This document shows, one piece after another, positions 8,174-32,048 of a stretch of DNA of 34,684 nt (positions are counted from its first letter, which is position 1; the number at the start of each line of letters is the position of its first letter). Source of the DNA: Eubacteriales bacterium (GTDB taxonomy: Bacteria; Bacillota; Clostridia; Lachnospirales; Lachnospiraceae); assembly GCA_030526265.1 (NCBI GenBank), contig JAUNDE010000019.1:1-34684 (forward strand). Reading direction: 5' to 3'. Below the pieces are notes generated by a model, which was given only the letters and a program-made list of their open reading frames with translations, was not told the DNA's origin and made no database searches. The translations under genes and the position numbers were made by a program.

Positions 8174-8379
8174 ATAGCATACGAAACATTCGTGGCTATT
8201 TCAAATATACAAGGCGCACCTGTAGCCGGTGAAACCTGTATATTGCTTCTAATGCCGGCCCGTCATTACCGATTATCGGTGGCCGGAAAGGGCGTGATAC
8301 CGAACACGCCTGGGAATTGGATTCTCAGTTCCCCTATTAAAGACGATGTACTTTAAGAATGAGATATGGATATATCTCA
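8174..8379 (+). ncRNA. Candidate structured mRNA leader upstream of rpsM
   Basis: About 200 bases fold as consecutive clean stems: ATAGC/GCTAT enclosing ACGA/TCGT (8174-8199); AATATACA/TGTATATT plus GG/CC enclosing CACC/GGTG (8204-8244); CCGGCC/GGCCGG enclosing ACCG/CGGT (8255-8286); GGCGTG/CACGCC (8291-8310); GGGAA/TTCCC (8312-8333); TTAAAG/CTTTAA (8338-8356); and a perfect TGAGATAT/ATATCTCA stem with loop GGAT (8360-8379), 44 bases before the rpsM ATG. No ORF of note lies inside. By position it could be the site through which S4 controls the alpha operon, as in E. coli; this is inference and I do not recognise the fold as a known family. Confidence 0.6.
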
Positions 8380-23750: not shown

Positions 23751-23779
23751 TTGACAGAAAATCTCAGATGTTGTATAGT
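23751..23779 (+). promoter_or_regulatory. purF promoter
   Basis: TTGACA (23751-23756) and TATAGT (23774-23779), 17 bases apart, near consensus. Predicted start 23785-23787, only about 8 bases before a terminator hairpin. Confidence 0.75.
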
Positions 23780-23792
23780 ACGTCGTGTAGAC

Positions 23793-23832
23793 AAGGACGT
23801 CTTTGGGTAAGACCCAATGACGTCCTTTTTTT
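23793..23832 (+). terminator. Terminator/attenuator in purF leader
   Basis: AAGGACGTC (23793-23801) pairs with GACGTCCTT (23819-23827); inside it TTGGGT pairs with ACCCAA around loop AAG; seven T follow (23826-23832). It lies between promoter and gene with no + strand gene upstream, so it should attenuate purF or end a roughly 45-nt RNA. Confidence 0.75.
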
Positions 23833-23878
23833 GTTGCCATGCATCCGGAGGAAGCTGCCAGTGGCAGGTTCTGTAGGT
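23827..23878 (+). repeat. 52-bp post-terminator repeat, copy 1 (purF leader)
   Basis: Identical over 52 bases to 31997-32048. It begins in the terminator T-run, contains a GAAGCTGCC/GGCAGGTTC hairpin, and its GTTGCCAT (23833-23840) can pair with ATGGCGAC (23880-23887) just beyond the repeat. Confidence 0.85.
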
Positions 23879-23950
23879 TATGGCGACGAGACAAGTGACA
23901 TCGTGCCTGAATGAACAGGAATTTCTTTCATAGTGATGAGGAGGAAAAGT

Positions 23951-25366
23951 ATGGATTTACATGAAGAATGTGGTGTGTTTGGCGCATTTTCGACAGAAGA
24001 AGTGGATCTTGCATCGATGGCGTATTATGGATTATATGCGCTTCAGCATCGAGGGCAGGAAAGCTGTGGGATCGTAGTGAATGAGAAAGGTATTTTTCAT
24101 TCACACAAAGATATCGGTCTTGTCAGTGAAGTATTTTCAAAAGAAAATCTGAGACGGTTTCCAAAAGGAAATATCGTGGTTGGACATGTGCGATACGGTA
24201 CGACCGGAGCCAATACAAGAAGCAACTGTCAGCCGATCGAGGTGAATCACCAGAAAGGGAAACTTGCGCTTGCCCATAACGGGAATTTGAGCAATGCATT
24301 GGAACTTCGGGATGAACTGGAACTTTCCGGAGCAATTTTCCAGTCCACAAGTGATACCGAGACGATTGCGTATATCATCACAAGAGAGCGAATCCGTTCT
24401 TCGAGCATTGAGGAAGCTGTGAGCAGAGCAATGTACCGGCTGGAGGGAGCCTATTCTCTTGTAATGATGTCTCCGCAGAAGCTGATCGCGGTTCGTGATC
24501 CGAGGGGATTCAGACCACTTTGTTATGGACAGATGGCAGATGGAACCTATGTTGTTGCTTCGGAAAGCTGTGCACTGCAGGCGGTGGGAGCTGAATTTGT
24601 AAGAGACATTCAGCCTGGTGAGATCGTTATCTTCTCTATGAATGGCGTGCGCTCTATCACGGAACACTGCAATCTGGAAAAGAAAACAACATGTATTTTT
24701 GAGTATATTTATTTCGCAAGACCGGATTCTGTCATAGACGGTAAATGCGTGCATTCCTCAAGGTATAAAGTGGGCCAGATACTGGCAGAACGATTCCCGG
24801 TCGATGCGGATGTCGTGATCGGAGTCCCGGACAGCGGACTGGACGCGGCTCTTGGATATGCAGACCGCTCAGGGATACGATATGAAATAGGACTGATCAA
24901 AAACAAATATATCGGAAGAACGTTTATCTCGCCGGGGCAGGATACGAGATTTAATCAGGTGAAGATCAAGCTGAGTCCGATAAAGAGTGTGCTGGAAGGG
25001 AAAAGAGTTGTTCTGATCGACGATTCCATCGTTCGTGGTACTACGAGCAGGAGGCTTGTGAAGCTTCTGAGAGAAGCAGGGGCAAAAGAAATACATATGA
25101 GAATATCGGCACCGCCGTTTTTGCATCCTTGCTACTATGGAACGGATATTGATTCAGAAGAAAATCTGATCGCACACAATCACAGTATTGAAGAGATCAA
25201 AGAGATCATCGGGGTGGATTCGCTTGGCTATCTTCCGATGGGAGAACTTCCGCAGCTCGTTGACAGTGACGAGATCTGCACGGCATGCTTCAGCGGTGAT
25301 TATCCGACGAAGGTTCCGACAGATCTCAGAAAAAACCGTTTTGAAGGGAAAATAAAAATCGAATAA
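23951..25366 (+). CDS. purF: Amidophosphoribosyltransferase
   Basis: Catalyses the first committed step of purine synthesis: PRPP + glutamine to 5-phosphoribosylamine. The 471-residue protein has a short propeptide (MDLHEE) before the nucleophile Cys7 (ECGVFGAF), a class II glutaminase domain (to about 235, with YGTTGANTRSNCQP) and a PRPP-binding domain (about 255-440, VVLIDDSIVRGTTSRRLV). C-terminal cysteines (near ICTACFSGDYP) fit the Fe-S form found in Bacillus. Start 23951 is set by GAGGAGGA just upstream. It stands apart from other pur genes. No purine riboswitch is seen; a terminator and the 52-bp repeat occupy its leader. Confidence 0.95.
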   Translation: MDLHEECGVFGAFSTEEVDLASMAYYGLYALQHRGQESCGIVVNEKGIFHSHKDIGLVSEVFSKENLRRFPKGNIVVGHVRYGTTGANTRSNCQPIEVNHQKGKLALAHNGNLSNALELRDELELSGAIFQSTSDTETIAYIITRERIRSSSIEEAVSRAMYRLEGAYSLVMMSPQKLIAVRDPRGFRPLCYGQMADGTYVVASESCALQAVGAEFVRDIQPGEIVIFSMNGVRSITEHCNLEKKTTCIFEYIYFARPDSVIDGKCVHSSRYKVGQILAERFPVDADVVIGVPDSGLDAALGYADRSGIRYEIGLIKNKYIGRTFISPGQDTRFNQVKIKLSPIKSVLEGKRVVLIDDSIVRGTTSRRLVKLLREAGAKEIHMRISAPPFLHPCYYGTDIDSEENLIAHNHSIEEIKEIIGVDSLGYLPMGELPQLVDSDEICTACFSGDYPTKVPTDLRKNRFEGKIKIE

Positions 25367-25377
25367 TGATTGGGAGG

Positions 25378-25403
25378 GGCTGCGGCAATTGCTGCAGCCT
25401 TTT
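25378..25403 (+). terminator. Terminator after purF
   Basis: GGCTGCGGC (25378-25386) pairs with GCTGCAGCC (25391-25399) around AATT, one G-U pair, followed by TTTT. Confidence 0.8.
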
Positions 25404-25507
25404 CGGTCATCAGCTGCTTTTCTTGATTTTTAAATGACTGCATGATACACTTGATTCAGACGAAACGGTCAGGGGAAATGACCGATGATAAAAGAGAGGT
25501 ATTTGAT

Positions 25508-26026
25508 ATGGAAAACCCAATTGTTACAATTGAGATGGAAAATGGAGATATTATGAAAGCGGAACTGTATCCGGACGTGGCACCGAATACAGTCAATAAC
25601 TTTATTTCACTGGTGAAAAAAGGATACTATGACGGACTGATCTTTCATCGCGTAATCCGCGGATTCATGATCCAGGGCGGATGTCCGAACGGAACAGGAA
25701 TGGGAGGCCCGGGCTATCAGATCAAAGGCGAGTTCGCACAGAATGGATTTGCAAATGATATTCGCCATACACCGGGTGTTCTTTCTATGGCACGTGCCAT
25801 GCATCCGGACTCAGCAGGATCACAGTTCTTCATCATGCATGAGACATCACCGCATCTCGACGGTGCGTATGCCGCATTCGGAAAGATCGTCGAAGGAATG
25901 GACGTTGTGAATAAGATCGCTGAGACAAGAACAGGCTGGCAGGACAGACCGGTCAGCGAGCAGAAGATGAAAAGAGTGACGGTTGACACAAAGGGTGTTG
26001 ATTATCCGGAACCTGAGAAGGCTTAA
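25508..26026 (+). CDS. Cyclophilin-type peptidyl-prolyl cis-trans isomerase
   Basis: Speeds cis-trans isomerisation of X-Pro bonds during protein folding. The 172-residue product is almost wholly the cyclophilin domain, with active-site blocks FHRVIRGFMIQGG (Arg, Phe, Gln) and SAGSQFFIM, and GAYAAFGKIVEGMDVV near the end. No signal peptide, so cytosolic. Start 25508 (MENPIVTIEMENG) is preferred over 25442 because AGAGAGG at 25493-25499 serves it and the upstream extension is unlike the family. It lies 27 bases before ecfA1 and may be cotranscribed with the ECF genes. Confidence 0.93.
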   Translation: MENPIVTIEMENGDIMKAELYPDVAPNTVNNFISLVKKGYYDGLIFHRVIRGFMIQGGCPNGTGMGGPGYQIKGEFAQNGFANDIRHTPGVLSMARAMHPDSAGSQFFIMHETSPHLDGAYAAFGKIVEGMDVVNKIAETRTGWQDRPVSEQKMKRVTVDTKGVDYPEPEKA

Positions 26027-26053
26027 GTGTAAGAGAAGGAGGCTGAAACTGTT

Positions 26054-26908
26054 ATGGGTAAAATGGTTCAGACCGATGACTTGATTTTTGAATATGCAAA
26101 ATGTGACGAAGAAGGGAATGTGACCGGTTCTTATCGCGCGATCGACAAAGTAAACCTTGATATTGAGCAGGGTCAGTTTATTGCGATCCTGGGGCATAAC
26201 GGCTCCGGAAAATCGACGCTTGCGAAGCATATGAATGCGATCCTGCTTCCGACAGGGGGCACGATGTGGGTCGGAGGGCGTGACACGAAAGATCCGAATG
26301 AGTTATGGAATGTCCGTCAGTCGGCAGGTATGGTATTTCAGAATCCCGATAACCAGATCATTGGAACTGTTGTGGAAGAGGATGTCGGATTTGGACTGGA
26401 GAATCTTGGTGTTCCTACAGCCGATATCTGGAAACGTGTGGAAGAGAGCCTCAAAGCGGTTGGGATGATCGAATACAGACATCATTCACCAAATAAATTA
26501 TCGGGCGGTCAGAAACAGCGTGTTGCGATCGCCGGAGTGATTGCGATGAGACCGAAGTGCATCGTCCTTGATGAACCAACGGCTATGCTGGATCCGAATG
26601 GACGGAAGGAAGTCCTCCGTACCGTACAGGAACTTCGGAAACAGGAGAATATCACAGTGATCCTGATTACGCATTACATGGAAGAAGTCATTGATGCAGA
26701 TAAAGTATTTGTTATGGATCATGGCCATGTGGTCATGGAAGGAACACCAAAGGAAGTCTTTTCCCAGGTCGATACGCTGAAAAGTTATCGGCTGGACGTT
26801 CCGCAGGTGACAATACTTGCAGATGAACTAAGAAAACGCGGACTGGATATCCCAGCCGGTATTTTGAGGAAAGAGGAACTGGTGAAAGCAATATGTCAAT
26901 TAAAATAG
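26054..26908 (+). CDS. ecfA1: ECF transporter ATPase A1
   Basis: One of two ATPases of the energy-coupling factor core that drives uptake of vitamins or metals through exchangeable S components. 284 residues with Walker [10 protein letters not shown] (47-55), Q-loop [10 protein letters not shown], signature [13 protein letters not shown], Walker [12 protein letters not shown] and switch His (ITHYMEE). The Q-loop FQNPDNQ and the paired arrangement mark EcfA rather than other ABC ATPases. The 3' end overlaps ecfA2 by 16 bases. Confidence 0.95.
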
Positions 26909-27774
26909 AGCATTTAAATTATGTATACAGCCAGGGCACAGCCTATGAGAAACAGGCGCTGAAAGATATCTGCCTTGAGATCCCGCATGGTGAGTTCGTT
27001 GGCATTATCGGACACACCGGCTCGGGAAAGTCAACGCTGATCCAGCACCTGAACGGTCTGATCAGGGCCACGAGTGGTGCGCTGTATTATAATGGTGAGA
27101 ATATTTATGAAGAAAACTATAATTTAAGGGCGCTGAGAAGTCAGGTCGGACTTGTGTTCCAGTATCCGGAACATCAGCTTTTTGAGATCGATGTTCTTAC
27201 GGATGTCTGTTTCGGACCAAAAAATCAGGGGCTTCCAAAGGAAGAGTGTGAGAAGAGAGCGCTGGAAGCACTGAAACTGGTAGGTCTGAAAGAGAAGTAT
27301 TACAAGTCCTCTCCGTTTGAACTTTCAGGAGGTCAGAAACGAAGAGTTGCGATCGCAGGTGTGCTTGCAATGAGACCGAAGGTACTTGTCCTGGATGAGC
27401 CTACGGCAGGACTTGACCCGAAAGGCCGGGATGATATCCTCGATCAGATCGCATATCTTCACAGAGAAAGTGATCTGACGGTTGTGCTTGTATCGCACAG
27501 CATGGAAGACATCGCGAAGTATGCAGATCGCCTGATCGTTATGAATCACGGAGAAGTGCAGTACAATGACAGTCCGAAGAATGTATTCGCCCACTACCGT
27601 GAGCTTGAGAAAATGGGACTTGCCGCGCCACAGGTGACATACATTATGCATGAGCTGAAAGAAAAGGGGCTTTCTGTTGATGCGGATGCTACAACGGTGA
27701 AAGAGGCGGCAGACAGCATCATGAACGCTCTTGCGGGAGCTTCTTCTGCAAAAGGAGGTGCCGGAAATGATTAG
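26893..27774 (+). CDS. ecfA2: ECF transporter ATPase A2
   Basis: Second ATPase of the ECF core, forming a heterodimer with EcfA1. 293 residues: Walker [11 protein letters not shown]-loop [10 protein letters not shown], signature [13 protein letters not shown], Walker [13 protein letters not shown], switch His (VSHSMED). The C-terminal ~35 residues are Ala/Gly-rich and less conserved. The reading frame starts inside ecfA1 and its stop overlaps ecfT by 8 bases, giving a tightly coupled trio. Confidence 0.95.
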
Positions 27775-28591
27775 GGATATCACGATTGGACAGTATTATC
27801 CGGCAAAAAGTGTGCTCCACAGACTTGATCCGAGAGTGAAACTGGTTGCGACCGTATTGTATCTGATTTCGCTGTTTCTGTTTAAGAATATTTCAGGATA
27901 CATCGTGGTGACGATTTTTCTTGTTACGGTCATCCGGTTATCAAAAGTACCATTTAAGTATATTATGCGCGGTATGAAGCCGATCCTCATGATTTTGATG
28001 ATCACGCTTTTGTTTAACTTGTTCCTCACAAGAGACGGAGATATTATTTTCCGGATCTGGAAGCTCAGCATTACAGAAGGCGGATTGAGAAATGCCGTCT
28101 TTATGGCGATGCGCCTGCTCTATCTTATCGCGGGCTCCTCGCTGATGACATTTACAACAACACCAAATGAACTTACGGATGGAATCGAGAGCCTTTTGAA
28201 GCCTCTTAATAAGGTTCATGTACCGGTTCATGAGATCGCGATGATGATGTCAATTGCGCTGAGATTTATTCCGATCCTTCTTGAGGAGACGGATAAGATC
28301 ATGAAGGCGCAGATCGCAAGGGGAGCTGACCTTGAGAGTGGAAATATGCTCGAGAAAGCAAAAGCTATGGTTCCGATCCTTGTGCCTCTTTTTGTGTCGG
28401 CGTTCCGCCGTGCAAATGATCTCGCAATGGCGATGGAGGCGAGATGCTACCGGGGAGGCGAAGGCAGGACGAAGATGAATCCGCTGAAATATCACAGCAG
28501 AGATTACGCGGCGTATTTGTTTATGATCGCCTATATCATTGTGGTTGTCTGCGTGGGCAGATTTGTTCCGATTCATATCTGGGTATTCTGA
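27767..28591 (+). CDS. ecfT: ECF transporter transmembrane coupling protein T
   Basis: EcfT links the ATPase pair to substrate-binding S components in the membrane. 274 residues with about five hydrophobic segments and the two Ala-Arg-type coupling motifs (AQIARGAD and AMEARCYRG) of the cytoplasmic helices. Start 27767 ([15 protein letters not shown]) is set by AAAGGAGG at 27751-27758. No S component is adjacent, so this is the group II, shared ECF module serving S proteins encoded elsewhere. Confidence 0.95.
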   Translation: MIRDITIGQYYPAKSVLHRLDPRVKLVATVLYLISLFLFKNISGYIVVTIFLVTVIRLSKVPFKYIMRGMKPILMILMITLLFNLFLTRDGDIIFRIWKLSITEGGLRNAVFMAMRLLYLIAGSSLMTFTTTPNELTDGIESLLKPLNKVHVPVHEIAMMMSIALRFIPILLEETDKIMKAQIARGADLESGNMLEKAKAMVPILVPLFVSAFRRANDLAMAMEARCYRGGEGRTKMNPLKYHSRDYAAYLFMIAYIIVVVCVGRFVPIHIWVF

Positions 28592-28652
28592 TGAAAATGA
28601 GGCTGTTTGGAATTATTTGCCGTTTGAAACAATAGAAAAATAGTAATATGAT

Positions 28653-28686
28653 ATCGAGTAGGAAAGCGATTTCCTGCTCGATTCGT
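28653..28686 (+). terminator. Probable terminator after ecfT
   Basis: ATCGAGTAGGAAA (28653-28665) pairs with TTTCCTGCTCGAT (28670-28682), loop GCGA, but the T-run is poor (TCGTTTATC). The rest of the 28592-28808 gap is AT-rich with no convincing promoter. Confidence 0.55.
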
Positions 28687-28814
28687 TTATCATTATGCAT
28701 GTTGTCCGAGAAATCTATTTGCAAATTGTGAAATATATACAGCAAAGTGTGAAAACATATAAAAATTATTGTAATTATTACCAATCTTTGACATAATAGA
28801 TAGGAGGGATGGTT

Positions 28815-29564
28815 ATGAGACGAATTAAATTGACTGTGGCGTATGATGGAACGGAATACTGTGGATGGCAGATTCAGCCAAATGGTATAACCATAGAAGA
28901 AATACTGAACCGTGAGATCAGCAGTCTTACAGGAGAAGAAATTCGTGTTATAGGTGCCAGCCGAACAGATTCTGGCGTTCATGCATTGGGAAATGTAGCT
29001 GTTTTTGATACGGAATGTTCAATTCCGCCAGAGAGAATAGCATATGCATTGAACCGCAGGATGCCGGATGATATCGTGATCATGAAGTCTGAAGAGGTGT
29101 CGCATGACTGGCATCCGAGATATCAGGATGTGATCACAAAAACATACGAATATCATATATACAATGCTGATGTTCCAAATCCAATGAAAAGAAGAACAAC
29201 AGCATTTGTTTCATTTCCGCTGGATATTGAAAAAATGCGAGAGGGCGCGGCGTATGTAGTCGGGGAACATGATTTTGCAAGTTTTTGCAATGTCAGGACC
29301 AATACAAATGATACGGTCAGAACTGTTTACGAGATCACAGTCGAAAAGAGAGAGGATGAGATTGTGATTCGAATCAAAGGCAATGGATTCCTGTACAACA
29401 TGGTAAGGATCATTGCCGGAGTGTTGATACGTGTTGGACGGGGATTTTACGAGCCGGAAAAAGTCCGGGATATTCTGGAGGAAAAGAAAAGAACAGAAGC
29501 CGGCGTGACAGCGCCGCCGCAGGGACTTGTCCTTATAGGAATAGACTATAATAAGGAAAATTAA
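28815..29564 (+). CDS. truA: tRNA pseudouridine(38-40) synthase
   Basis: Isomerises uridines 38-40 in the anticodon arm of many tRNAs. 249 residues with the N-terminal VAYDGTEYCGWQ block and the catalytic aspartate motif SRTDSGVHA (about residues 53-61); the second RNA-binding half ends with GFLYNMVRIIAGVLIRVG. Start 28815 is preferred over 28809 since AGGAGGG at 28802-28808 abuts the first ATG. truA after ecfT is the common Firmicutes order. Confidence 0.95.
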   Translation: MRRIKLTVAYDGTEYCGWQIQPNGITIEEILNREISSLTGEEIRVIGASRTDSGVHALGNVAVFDTECSIPPERIAYALNRRMPDDIVIMKSEEVSHDWHPRYQDVITKTYEYHIYNADVPNPMKRRTTAFVSFPLDIEKMREGAAYVVGEHDFASFCNVRTNTNDTVRTVYEITVEKREDEIVIRIKGNGFLYNMVRIIAGVLIRVGRGFYEPEKVRDILEEKKRTEAGVTAPPQGLVLIGIDYNKEN

Positions 29565-29595
29565 CGAATTTCTGTAAGCAGGAGCTGTTTTTTGG

Positions 29596-29624
29596 TTGAC
29601 AGTGGAAAATGTAAATGATATTCT
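29596..29624 (+). promoter_or_regulatory. hppA promoter
   Basis: TTGACA (29596-29601) and TATTCT (29619-29624), 17 bases apart. Predicted start near 29631, just before a palindrome. Confidence 0.75.
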
Positions 29625-29634
29625 AAAAACAAAA

Positions 29635-29652
29635 GATTTGCAAATGCAAATC
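29635..29652 (+). promoter_or_regulatory. Palindrome at the hppA transcription start
   Basis: GATTTGCA-AA-TGCAAATC is a perfect 8-bp inverted repeat immediately downstream of the hppA promoter. A second, looser arm pair AAGTTT/AAACTT follows (about 29653-29672). Operator or 5' stabilising hairpin. Confidence 0.5.
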
Positions 29653-29697
29653 AAGTTTACAGATGCAAACTTATGTGTATGAACAGGAGGAAAAACA

Positions 29698-31680
29698 ATG
29701 GAAATGTTACTTAAGTTGGTTCCGGTATTCGGTGTTGTTGCACTGCTTTTTGCAGCTTATCTTGCATCAAAGGTTAACAGGCAGAGTGCAGGATCGGACA
29801 GAATGAAGGAAATCGCAGGATCTATCAGTGACGGAGCGAAGGCATTCCTTACAGCTGAGTACAAGATTTTGATCGTATTTGTACTGGTACTCTTTGTGCT
29901 GATCGGATTTGGAATCGGAAACTGGATCACAGCGATCTGTTTTGTTGTTGGAGCTGCTTTCTCAACACTTGCAGGCTATTTCGGAATGACGGTTGCAACA
30001 AGAGCAAATGTCAGAACAGCCAATGCGGCAAAAGAAGGCGGAATGAACAAGGCTCTTTCGATCGCGTTCTCAGGCGGTGCTGTTATGGGTATGTGCGTTG
30101 CCGGTCTTGGAGTACTTGGTGTAGGTGGTATCTACGTACTTACAGGAAATGCAGATATCTTGTTTGGATTCAGTCTTGGTGCTTCATCCATCGCGTTGTT
30201 TGCACGTGTAGGTGGCGGTATCTATACAAAAGCAGCAGACGTTGGTGCTGACCTTGTTGGTAAAGTTGAAGCAGGTATTCCGGAAGATGATCCGCGTAAC
30301 CCGGCTGTTATCGCAGATAATGTAGGTGATAACGTAGGTGACGTTGCCGGAATGGGAGCTGACCTTTTCGAATCATATGTCGGAGCTGTTATTTCAGCAT
30401 TGACACTTGGTCTTGTATATTTCCAGGCAGAAGGTGCGATCTACCCACTTGCAATCGCAGGTCTTGGACTTATCGCATCGATCCTTGGAACATTTTTCGT
30501 ACGTGGTGATGAAAATTCAAACCCGCACAAAGCATTGAAGACAGGTACATATGCAGCAAGTGTGATCGTTCTGATTATCGCATTTGTTCTCAGCAAAATG
30601 TGCTTTGGTAACTTTAACGCAGCGATCGCAATCGTATCCGGACTGATCGTTGGACTTCTGATCGGTATCATCACAGAGGTCTACACATCCGGTGATTATA
30701 AATCAGTAAAAGAAATCGCAGATCAGTCTGAGACCGGTTCTGCAACAACGATCATCAGCGGTATCGCGGTAGGTATGAAATCTACAGCAATCCCGATCAT
30801 CCTGATCTGTGTTGGTATCTTTGCAGCATATCAGGTATGTGGTCTTTACGGTATCGCGCTTTCTGCAGTAGGTATGCTTTCAACAACAGCGATCACAGTT
30901 GCAGTTGATGCTTATGGTCCAATCGCAGATAACGCAGGTGGTATCGCAGAGATGTCAGGGCTTGACAAGAGCGTTCGTAATATTACAGATAAACTTGATG
31001 CAGTAGGTAATACGACAGCAGCTATGGGTAAAGGTTTTGCTATCGGTTCTGCAGCTCTTACAGCACTTTCACTTTTTGTGACATATGCAGAAGCAGTGAA
31101 GCTCGATACGATCGATATTCTTGATCATCGCGTAATCATTGGTCTGTTCATTGGTGGTATGCTTCCATTCCTGTTCTCAGCTATGACAATGTCATCCGTT
31201 TCAAGAGCAGCGAACCAGATGATCGCAGAAGTAAGAAGACAGTTCCGTACAATTCCTGGAATTATGGAAGGAACCGGAAAACCGGATTACAAATCATGTG
31301 TAGCAATCTCAACAACAGCAGCGCTTAAGGAAATGCTTGTACCAGGTGTTATGGCAGTAGCGGTTCCGCTGATCGTAGGTGTTCTTCTTGGACCTGCAGC
31401 ACTTGGCGGACTTCTTGCGGGAGCACTCGTAACAGGTGTTATGATGGCAATCTTCATGTCAAATGCGGGTGGCGCATGGGACAATGCTAAGAAATATATC
31501 GAAGATGGAAATCACGGCGGAAAAGGAAGCGATGCTCATAAAGCAGCAGTCGTTGGTGATACAGTAGGTGACCCGTTCAAGGATACATCAGGTCCATCCA
31601 TCAACATCCTTATTAAGTTGATGACAATCGTTTCACTTGTTTTTGCACCATTATTCCTTTCTATCGGCGGATTACTGTAA
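29698..31680 (+). CDS. hppA: Membrane-bound ion-pumping pyrophosphatase
   Basis: Hydrolyses pyrophosphate and couples this to pumping H+ and/or Na+ across the membrane, saving energy in anaerobes. The 660-residue protein has about 15-16 hydrophobic segments and the pyrophosphate-binding signatures [18 protein letters not shown] and [19 protein letters not shown], and a late [14 protein letters not shown] block. The motif GNTTAA (437-442) has Ala where K+-independent enzymes have Lys, so it belongs to the K+-dependent class. Whether it pumps Na+ or H+ is not decided here. AGGAGG precedes the ATG. It has its own promoter. Confidence 0.95.
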
Positions 31681-31690
31681 TCGTTGGTGC

Positions 31691-31719
31691 TTGACAAAGC
31701 CTCTGTAATCAGTTAGACT
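31691..31719 (+). promoter_or_regulatory. tyrS leader promoter
   Basis: TTGACA (31691-31696) and TAGACT (31714-31719), 17 bases apart, just after hppA. Predicted start near 31726. Confidence 0.65.
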
Positions 31720-31725
31720 TTTTCT

Positions 31726-32002
31726 GTAAACAGGATAAAGGCTTTGAAAAGAACAAGTAGAGATGATCACACCCTTACAGAAAGCAGCCGGAAGATGAGA
31801 GGCGCAAGAAAGAGATGATCTTGAATACATCTTGGAGCCTCACACCGAAAGACAGAAGTAGGCTGTGACGTAGGAGCGCACGTTACGCGTATCGAGTGTA
31901 ACAGATGCACTCAGTGAGACCAGAGGTGTGAGCTTTTGGTGAAGTAAGGTGGTAACACGGATATTAACCCGTCCTTATCGAATGATAAGGGCGGGATTTT
32001 TT
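31726..32002 (+). promoter_or_regulatory. Tyrosine T-box riboswitch with terminator
   Basis: A leader that senses uncharged tRNA-Tyr. The conserved T-box AAGGTGGTAACACGG is at 31946-31960. The antiterminator forms AAGG/CCTT and ACGG/CCGT around the 7-base bulge TGGTAAC, and competes with the terminator CCCGTCCTTATC (31968-31979) / GATAAGGGCGGG (31984-31995), followed by six T. A candidate Tyr specifier UAC lies at 31826-31828 within GAATACATC. Low charging of tRNA-Tyr should favour read-through into tyrS. Confidence 0.93.
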
Positions 32003-32048
32003 GTTGCCATGCATCCGGAGGAAGCTGCCAGTGGCAGGTTCTGTAGGT
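31997..32048 (+). repeat. 52-bp post-terminator repeat, copy 2 (tyrS leader)
   Basis: Identical to 23827-23878, again starting in the T-run of a terminator. TTGCCAT (32004-32010) can pair with ATGGCAA (32095-32101), enclosing an extra 13-bp hairpin TACTCGAGCAGGA/TCCTGCTCGAGTA with loop ATCA (about 32064-32094). Confidence 0.85.

Follow-up and report, generated by a model that had tools for sequence, protein, structure and literature searches.

The window analysed here, a 34,684-nt stretch of contig JAUNDE010000019.1 from a Eubacteriales bacterium of the family Lachnospiraceae, carries two copies of a 44-bp repeat, one in the leader of purF (copy A) and one in the leader of tyrS (copy B). We put the probability at roughly 75% that this repeat is a non-autonomous mobile element of Lachnospiraceae, which is addressed to hairpins, joined at G|T by a trans-acting enzyme, and persists as selfish DNA. 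The family is new, but as a short mobile repeat it is of a general kind already known; its structural target preference is unusual. The two gene names follow a preliminary description of this DNA and agree with the translated frames.

A repeat behind two terminator-like hairpins

The preliminary description had reported an identity of 52 bp between two leader stretches, 23827-23878 and 31997-32048. This identity is real: the sequences diverge beyond both ends, and the 44-bp core had no match (≤3 mismatches) in 100 shuffled windows. The first six bases of the identity are a T-run. The repeat was modelled as a 46-mer, GTTGCCATGCATCCGGAGGAAGCTGCCAGTGGCAGGTTCTGTAGGT, of which 44 bp are the inserted part. 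Copy A (23833..23878) lies between purF and a hairpin at 23793..23827, which is followed by a T-run to 23832; copy B (32003..32048) lies between tyrS and a T-box terminator hairpin at 31968..31995, which is followed by a T-run at 31997-32002. All of these are on the plus strand. As had been described, both copies are thus 3′ of a strong hairpin and T-run (-23.1 and -21.1 kcal/mol, respectively; z -6.6 each), and both score 75.3 bits with model R1. The purF hairpin was overlooked by a promoter/terminator scan and is detected by folding. In the best register, the inserted units are 23834-23877, flanked by a G and a T of the target, and 32004-32047 (both plus strand).

Exact empty sites and copies inside genes

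Genomes, contigs and loci are labelled G, C and L, and G000 is the source genome (2.23 Mb, 107 contigs). A DUF5348 gene of Sporofaciens musculi (L089) is interrupted by the repeat, and its halves match positions 1-31 and 32-68 of the PF17295 profile. At the matching locus in G296 (L122), which is exactly 44 bp shorter, the frame is open; its flanks are 91.5% and 86.6% identical to those of L089. The two loci differ by exactly the unit, with no duplication or loss of target sequence. G004 and G001 have a larger repeat, some copies of which contain the 44-mer at a given place where others lack it. At the tyrS locus in nine other genomes of the genus, the repeat was in none of the nine stretches, and a T-box terminator was recognized by eye in seven. 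Because of the exact 44-bp empty site, the larger repeat with and without the unit, and the absence from the tyrS relatives, the repeat is, to judge by these sequence comparisons, mobile and not a fixed leader module. Of the two explanations offered in the preliminary description, a functional module and a small mobile repeat, the second was supported by the many copies, the exact empty site, the copies within genes or another repeat, and the placement behind hairpins.

The stretch next to tyrS on contig C100 of G008 had no T-box terminator, and a T-box-like match lay about 700 nt further upstream.

Copies in frame were found in an MGMT gene (three in tandem), a macro-domain open reading frame (ORF), an RF-1-domain ORF, and an Orn/Lys/Arg-decarboxylase-type ORF, with units of 45, 45, 45 and 48 nt, respectively. 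Copy length was divisible by three in 28 of 154 copies, and the open-frame search favours such lengths. The MGMT array (L111) is 3′ of a small hairpin and CTTTT within the coding sequence. Tandem copies have a period of 44 in L087 and of 45-46 in L111.

In another locus of G296 (L239, contig C33), the left flank resembles that of one 44-mer copy in L089, and the right flank that of a second copy, which lies about 570 bp away in L089. Judged by its flanks, L239 seems to have arisen by a deletion through recombination of two copies.

Copies in the source genome and the family

The preliminary description had proposed searching the genome and related Lachnospiraceae. The source genome proved to have nine near-identical copies on eight contigs (≤3 mismatches; none for a reversed control). 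These nine copies, together with those in named records, among them Blautia sp. Marseille-P3087 and S. musculi, excluded a local duplication or assembly artefact. Five of the nine are identical over 46 bp, which makes the repeat look recently active in this genome. When the flanks were read, seven copies began within 2 bases of a T-run and two (L006 and L007) had a spacer; all nine fall outside the group without an upstream hairpin of -8 kcal/mol described below. Hosts of these copies include two tRNA genes and a T-box. With a longer query, further diverged and tandem copies were found in the same genome (C107, C24, C27 and C31).

At E 0.001, a covariance model built from 19 variants detected the repeat in 40 of 397 Lachnospiraceae genomes (37 of 334 genera), its carriers being scattered gut bacteria. 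In this survey 15 candidates per genome were scored, and copy numbers are lower bounds; carriers rich in copies are G000, G008, G379, G399 and G265. The survey and a class-wide draw of 391 genomes were run with stricter filters; the draw gave three matches, all in Lachnospiraceae, one being G000 and one a partial match (G232). Within the genus, 4 of 11 genomes are carriers (G000, G001, G004 and G008). Scanning a genome collection with a pattern gave 29 stretches, under the titles Lachnospiraceae, Roseburia, Blautia, Sporofaciens, Clostridium or 'bacterium'. Neither viral contigs, scanned with two patterns, nor plasmids gave an exact match. Matches in phages were in two unannotated faecal scaffolds, at MT835525.1:2356-2401 (L246) and MT835487.1:38383-38426 (L247), the latter directly 3′ of a terminator-like hairpin. 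No relatives of the flanks of these scaffolds were found for an empty-site comparison.

From 168 matches in the model tables, seven were dropped (six low-scoring ones on the opposite strand and a weak one in L087), and the other 161 reduced to 154 copies that differ in sequence and nearby flanks. Tandem second units in L087, L111 and L024 that the model did not report are uncounted. L113, L114 and L116, which were counted once, belong to three genera and have the same flanks across the displayed 80 nt upstream and 100 nt downstream. This copy probably travels on a larger mobile element, since three genera have the same flanks.

The preliminary description recognized no known family, and Rfam gave none for the repeat. 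There was no match at the gathering score for either window copy, only low-scoring matches for copy A at E up to 10, and, at E up to 1, nothing overlapping the repeat at the 16 loci scanned. Among the titles, abstract openings and passages covered by a literature search, no description of the 44-bp repeat was encountered.

Placement 3′ of hairpins

Among the 153 copies with sufficient sequence upstream, a hairpin of -12 kcal/mol or lower ended 2-14 nt before the 46-mer in 111. The corresponding fractions were 14/152 when the test was mirrored to the other side, 18/151 at 65-130 nt downstream, and 41/300 at random positions. A detector for hairpins followed by T-runs was positive for 76 of 153 copies; the other side gave 7 of 152, and random positions gave 60 of 2980. 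In 65 of the 76, the detector placed the hairpin foot 4-7 nt before position 1 of the 46-mer. This detector overlooks large loops and cannot report a foot nearer than 4 nt; the folding test was run as a correction. In the folding test at -8 kcal/mol, 116 of 129 copies had the foot 2-8 nt before position 1; the distance is shorter because the fold includes pairs between the T-run and A's upstream. The frequency of T was 59-80% at positions -3 to -6.

The bases flanking the unit (positions 1 and 46) were G and T in 106 of 154 copies, and GT makes up 4.7% of the dinucleotides at the same loci. Among 102 aligned rows, position 1 was G in 79 and position 2 was T in 93. The targeting of T-runs suggested in the preliminary description holds as to placement after terminators; the insertion point itself, however, is not the T-run but a few nucleotides 3′ of the hairpin foot, mostly between G and T. 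Copies also follow some hairpins without a T-run, for example those within the larger repeat. No upstream hairpin of -8 kcal/mol was found for 24 copies, in-gene copies among them. Placement 3′ of hairpins is a strong preference and no rule.

Structure and folding strand

An internal hairpin had been noted in the preliminary description. It exists but was described too short, as pairing extends further, to 13-14/44-45, and includes a small 5′ hairpin. The 46-mer folds through 13-14/44-45, a 3x3 internal loop, 18-21/37-40, a 1x1 mismatch, 23-27/31-35 and a triloop, in addition to the 5′ mini-hairpin (positions 3-5 with 9-11). In copy A, the mini-hairpin is at 23835..23843 and the main folded domain, based on pairing across aligned copies, at 23845..23877 (both plus strand). 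Support for the structure comes from covariation, not from energy, because copy A alone folds no better than its shuffles (z -0.97).

The covariance model proposed in the preliminary description was built, and its stems covary. In alignment A2 (100 loci giving 102 rows, 100 of them distinct), standard pairs fill 94.3% of 1371 cells, and 12 of the 14 pairs have changes on both sides. There are 72 double-change cells, compared with 5-37 in slid controls, and 0 of 500 shuffles reach any of five measures. All three pairs of the mini-hairpin show changes on both sides, with 95.6% of cells paired in 100 distinct copies. A sequence-based alignment of the 19 variants was 99.6% paired and had 4 double-change pairs versus 0-1. 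Positions 13/45 are C-G in 72 rows, T-G in 8, C-A in 7, T-A in 5, A-T in 3, G-C in 3 and others in 4. They form Watson-Crick pairs in 81 of 100 distinct rows (shuffled mean 65.9; 0 of 20000 shuffles as high).

G-U cells outnumber A-C cells by 120 to 43, and by 75 to 42 without the most wobble-prone pair. This excess indicates that the folding strand is the sense strand, continuing the upstream transcript. The same evidence fits RNA and single-stranded DNA alike and cannot tell them apart.

Register and proposed mechanism

The best register of the 44-bp unit is TTGCC...GTAGG. Taking positions 2-45 as the unit assigns positions 1 and 46 to the target. Such a register agrees with L048, which has A at position 1 and some empty relatives with AT for GT, and with L089/L122; it also leaves the covarying position 45 within the element. 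The 3′ end of the unit presents a hairpin, five nucleotides and G|T, and its resemblance to the targets would explain the tandem arrays.

We propose that a trans-acting recombinase or transposase would read a folded single strand in both the element and the target and would join the two conservatively at G|T. As the commonest hairpins of this kind, intrinsic terminators would receive most copies. Copies behind terminators would probably do little harm, and the element could thereby persist as selfish DNA with no general role for host genes.

Several points weigh against this reading. No enzyme was linked with the repeat: Y1 and GIIM, and within the genus RVT_1 and IS110, do not track the carriers tested, and tyrosine and serine recombinases were not searched for. 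Copies in one genome, or in one larger repeat, are not independent. No upstream hairpin of -12 kcal/mol was found for 42 of 153 copies, and the in-gene copies L131 and L206 have only weak upstream hairpins (-4.0 and -4.5). At -8 kcal/mol the contrast shrinks, to 129/153 versus 38/152 on the other side, 58/151 downstream and 94/300 at random positions. The distance to the hairpin foot varies with the definition of the foot, the register is ambiguous by 1-2 bp, and alignment A2, which was fitted to the model, leans towards structure. Placement at terminators could also result partly from selection against harmful insertions; the one-sidedness of the -12 kcal/mol test argues that selection is not the whole explanation.

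Relation to known elements and candidate movers

Short, structured, interspersed repeats in many copies, clustered and nested as here, are described for Streptococcus pneumoniae in passages of PMC3049150, where BOX, RUP and SPRITE are called parasitic elements. According to these passages BOX has a modular build, and terminal inverted repeats are present in both BOX and RUP; here, in another host, the repeat is a single 44-bp unit. The 44-mer also differs from BOX and RUP in preferring one side of hairpins, the 3′ one, and in the lack of target duplication where tested. Miniature inverted-repeat transposable elements (MITEs), as defined in passages of PMC3049150, duplicate the target site upon insertion. 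No such duplication was seen for the 44-mer, where filled and empty sites differ by 44 bp.

Integron cassettes with their attC sites share with the 44-mer a folded single-strand site, a G|TT junction, one orientation and tandem units (passages of PMC8876359). It is conceivable, at odds well below even, that the 44-mer is a minimal cassette, almost all of it folded attachment site, and is moved by integron-like recombination through a tyrosine recombinase for which terminator hairpins serve as secondary sites. The topology hairpin-G|TT...hairpin-G|TT, one-way, tandem in places and without target duplication, fits this explanation, as does the recombination of integrons between bases 1 and 2 of GTTRRRY (passages of PMC8876359). 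However, the consensus start GTTGCCA departs from GTTRRRY, the unit has no gene, and the copies are scattered over the genome. Because the 44-mer fails to show the GTTRRRY core, the resemblance suggests a likeness, not membership. An equally tentative idea is a single hairpin-addressed recombination system, in which the repeat would be a 44-nt self-folding 'cassette' made of almost only its own recombination hairpin, and terminators across the genome would form a dispersed attachment platform for several unrelated small repeats, namely the 44-mer, p2 and p3. Its recombinase would take a strong hairpin a few nucleotides before G|T as the attachment site, be it a terminator, another repeat or the element's own copy.

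The palindromic elements of Rickettsia are, like the 44-mer, palindromic repeats tolerated inside protein-coding genes. They are tagged CGTC according to passages of PMC3733652, whereas the 44-mer has no such tag and is mostly behind terminators.

Repetitive extragenic palindromic (REP) sequences associated with RAYT are likewise short hairpins (20-65 nt) with a tag, mostly extragenic, often 3′ of genes and sometimes within them (passages of PMC3733652 and PMC6006769). An origin of the 44-mer among REP-like or IS200/IS605-derived repeats, in which a Y1 (HUH) transposase would act on single-stranded DNA and the stretch 5′ of the hairpin would guide the 3′ junction, is in our view unlikely. In favour are the main hairpin and the pairing beside the 3′ junction (13-14/44-45, with 13-45 as C-G, T-A, A-T or G-C), which resembles the logic of guide and cleavage site in passages of PMC6006769; this IS200/IS605-type guide feature pairs and covaries over only 2 bp. 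On the other hand, the unpaired GTAG or CGTC tag of REPs is 5′ to the hairpin foot, whereas GTAG in the 44-mer is at positions 41-44, 3′ of the main hairpin (CTAC on the opposite strand). REPs occur as opposed pairs, and the 44-mer has the same orientation as the upstream hairpin.

The Y1 genes do not track the carriers either. Y1_Tnp (PF01797) was found in 27 of 40 carriers and in 12 of 18 comparison genomes without a pattern match (≤3 mismatches), not all of which are shown in the covariance-model survey list; for this comparison, G098, G232 and G375 were left out and G001, G004 and G008 added. Within the genus, it was in none of 4 carriers and in 6 of 7 non-carriers. Thirteen of the 40 carriers, including G000, G008 and G379, had no Y1/RAYT, and the carriers are partly drafts (68-100% complete), so that a gene missing from any one of them is weak evidence.

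The functional module of the preliminary description, an RNA made on terminator read-through and acting in stability, processing, anti-termination or translation control, has become improbable. It would fit the strand-biased covarying structure and the location in the purF and tyrS leaders. Against it stand the absence of the repeat from tyrS in all nine relatives, the unrelated upstream genes (two tRNA genes among them in G000), the copies inside coding genes elsewhere, and the lack of a match in 357 of the 397 family genomes under the strict filters.

Group IIC introns insert directly 3′ of intrinsic terminators (passages of PMC8919778), as do most 44-mer copies, not all. Unlike these introns, the 44-mer is 44 nt long and has no ribozyme match. 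Forty-four nucleotides are too short for group II ribozyme domains. It is very improbable that the repeat derives from group IIC introns, as their relic or satellite, and that their reverse transcriptase moves it, since the shared target class (passages of PMC8919778) stands against the lack of an Rfam group II match in 16 loci, the presence of GIIM (PF08388) in 5 of 16 carriers compared with 9 of 17 non-carriers, and, within the genus, no reverse transcriptase (RVT_1) in carriers G000, G001 and G008, with four matches in carrier G004. A satellite of IS110/IS1111 was rejected: within the genus, the DEDD transposase was over the cut-off in G000 and G004 and below it in carriers G001 and G008, and IS110 was over the cut-off in non-carriers G005, G006, G007, G009 and G010.

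Associated repeats and other features of the window

In the larger repeat that hosts the 44-mer (L041-L063 in G004 and G001), long complementary arms, which vary in sequence from copy to copy, enclose the conserved core GGGCAACACTCCGGTGAACTAACTGCTAAC...AAGTCT..GTAAGCAGTGGATTTCAC. This larger repeat hosts the 44-mer at different points. By eye, L115, L117, L172 and L175-L177 (G136 and G427) look like relatives of it. None of the four loci scanned had an Rfam match, and it looks like a structured repeat in its own right.

A second repeat, p2 (GTTATGGCGACGAGGCAAG...), was seen at L009, L021-L023 and L231 and in the window, directly behind terminators or the 44-mer. Part of it lies directly 3′ of copy A (23877..23924, plus strand), with similar stretches in the same genome (G000): those at C44, C17 and C103 match at 83-85%, and the one at C68 matches over a greater length. 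Its version in L021 folds at -51.4 kcal/mol (z -7.4). A third small palindromic repeat (GTATCATAGGAAAG...CTTTCCTATGATAT; z -5.3) lies directly behind the 44-mer in L071 and L084 of a Roseburia metagenome-assembled genome.

Upstream of insertion B and tyrS, a T-box leader occupies 31735..31979 (plus strand; Rfam RF00230, 109 bits). The stretch 23751-23827, before purF, has a promoter-like TTGACA-17-TATAGT and, within about 15 nt, the terminator-like hairpin; this very short purF leader had no Rfam match at the gathering score. An S4-Clostridia ribosomal protein leader at 8286-8341 exceeds the Rfam gathering score.

Implications

Short repeats of this sort are usually classed as generic MITEs or REPs. 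For the 44-bp element there are a testable target rule (a hairpin, a few nucleotides, G|T) and an exact empty site; its folding strand has been assigned and its covariation modelled. Several of its carriers lack the enzymes known for targeting hairpins or terminators. The mover, if found, could be a new structure-reading recombinase that places short cargo behind terminators and leaves genes unbroken.

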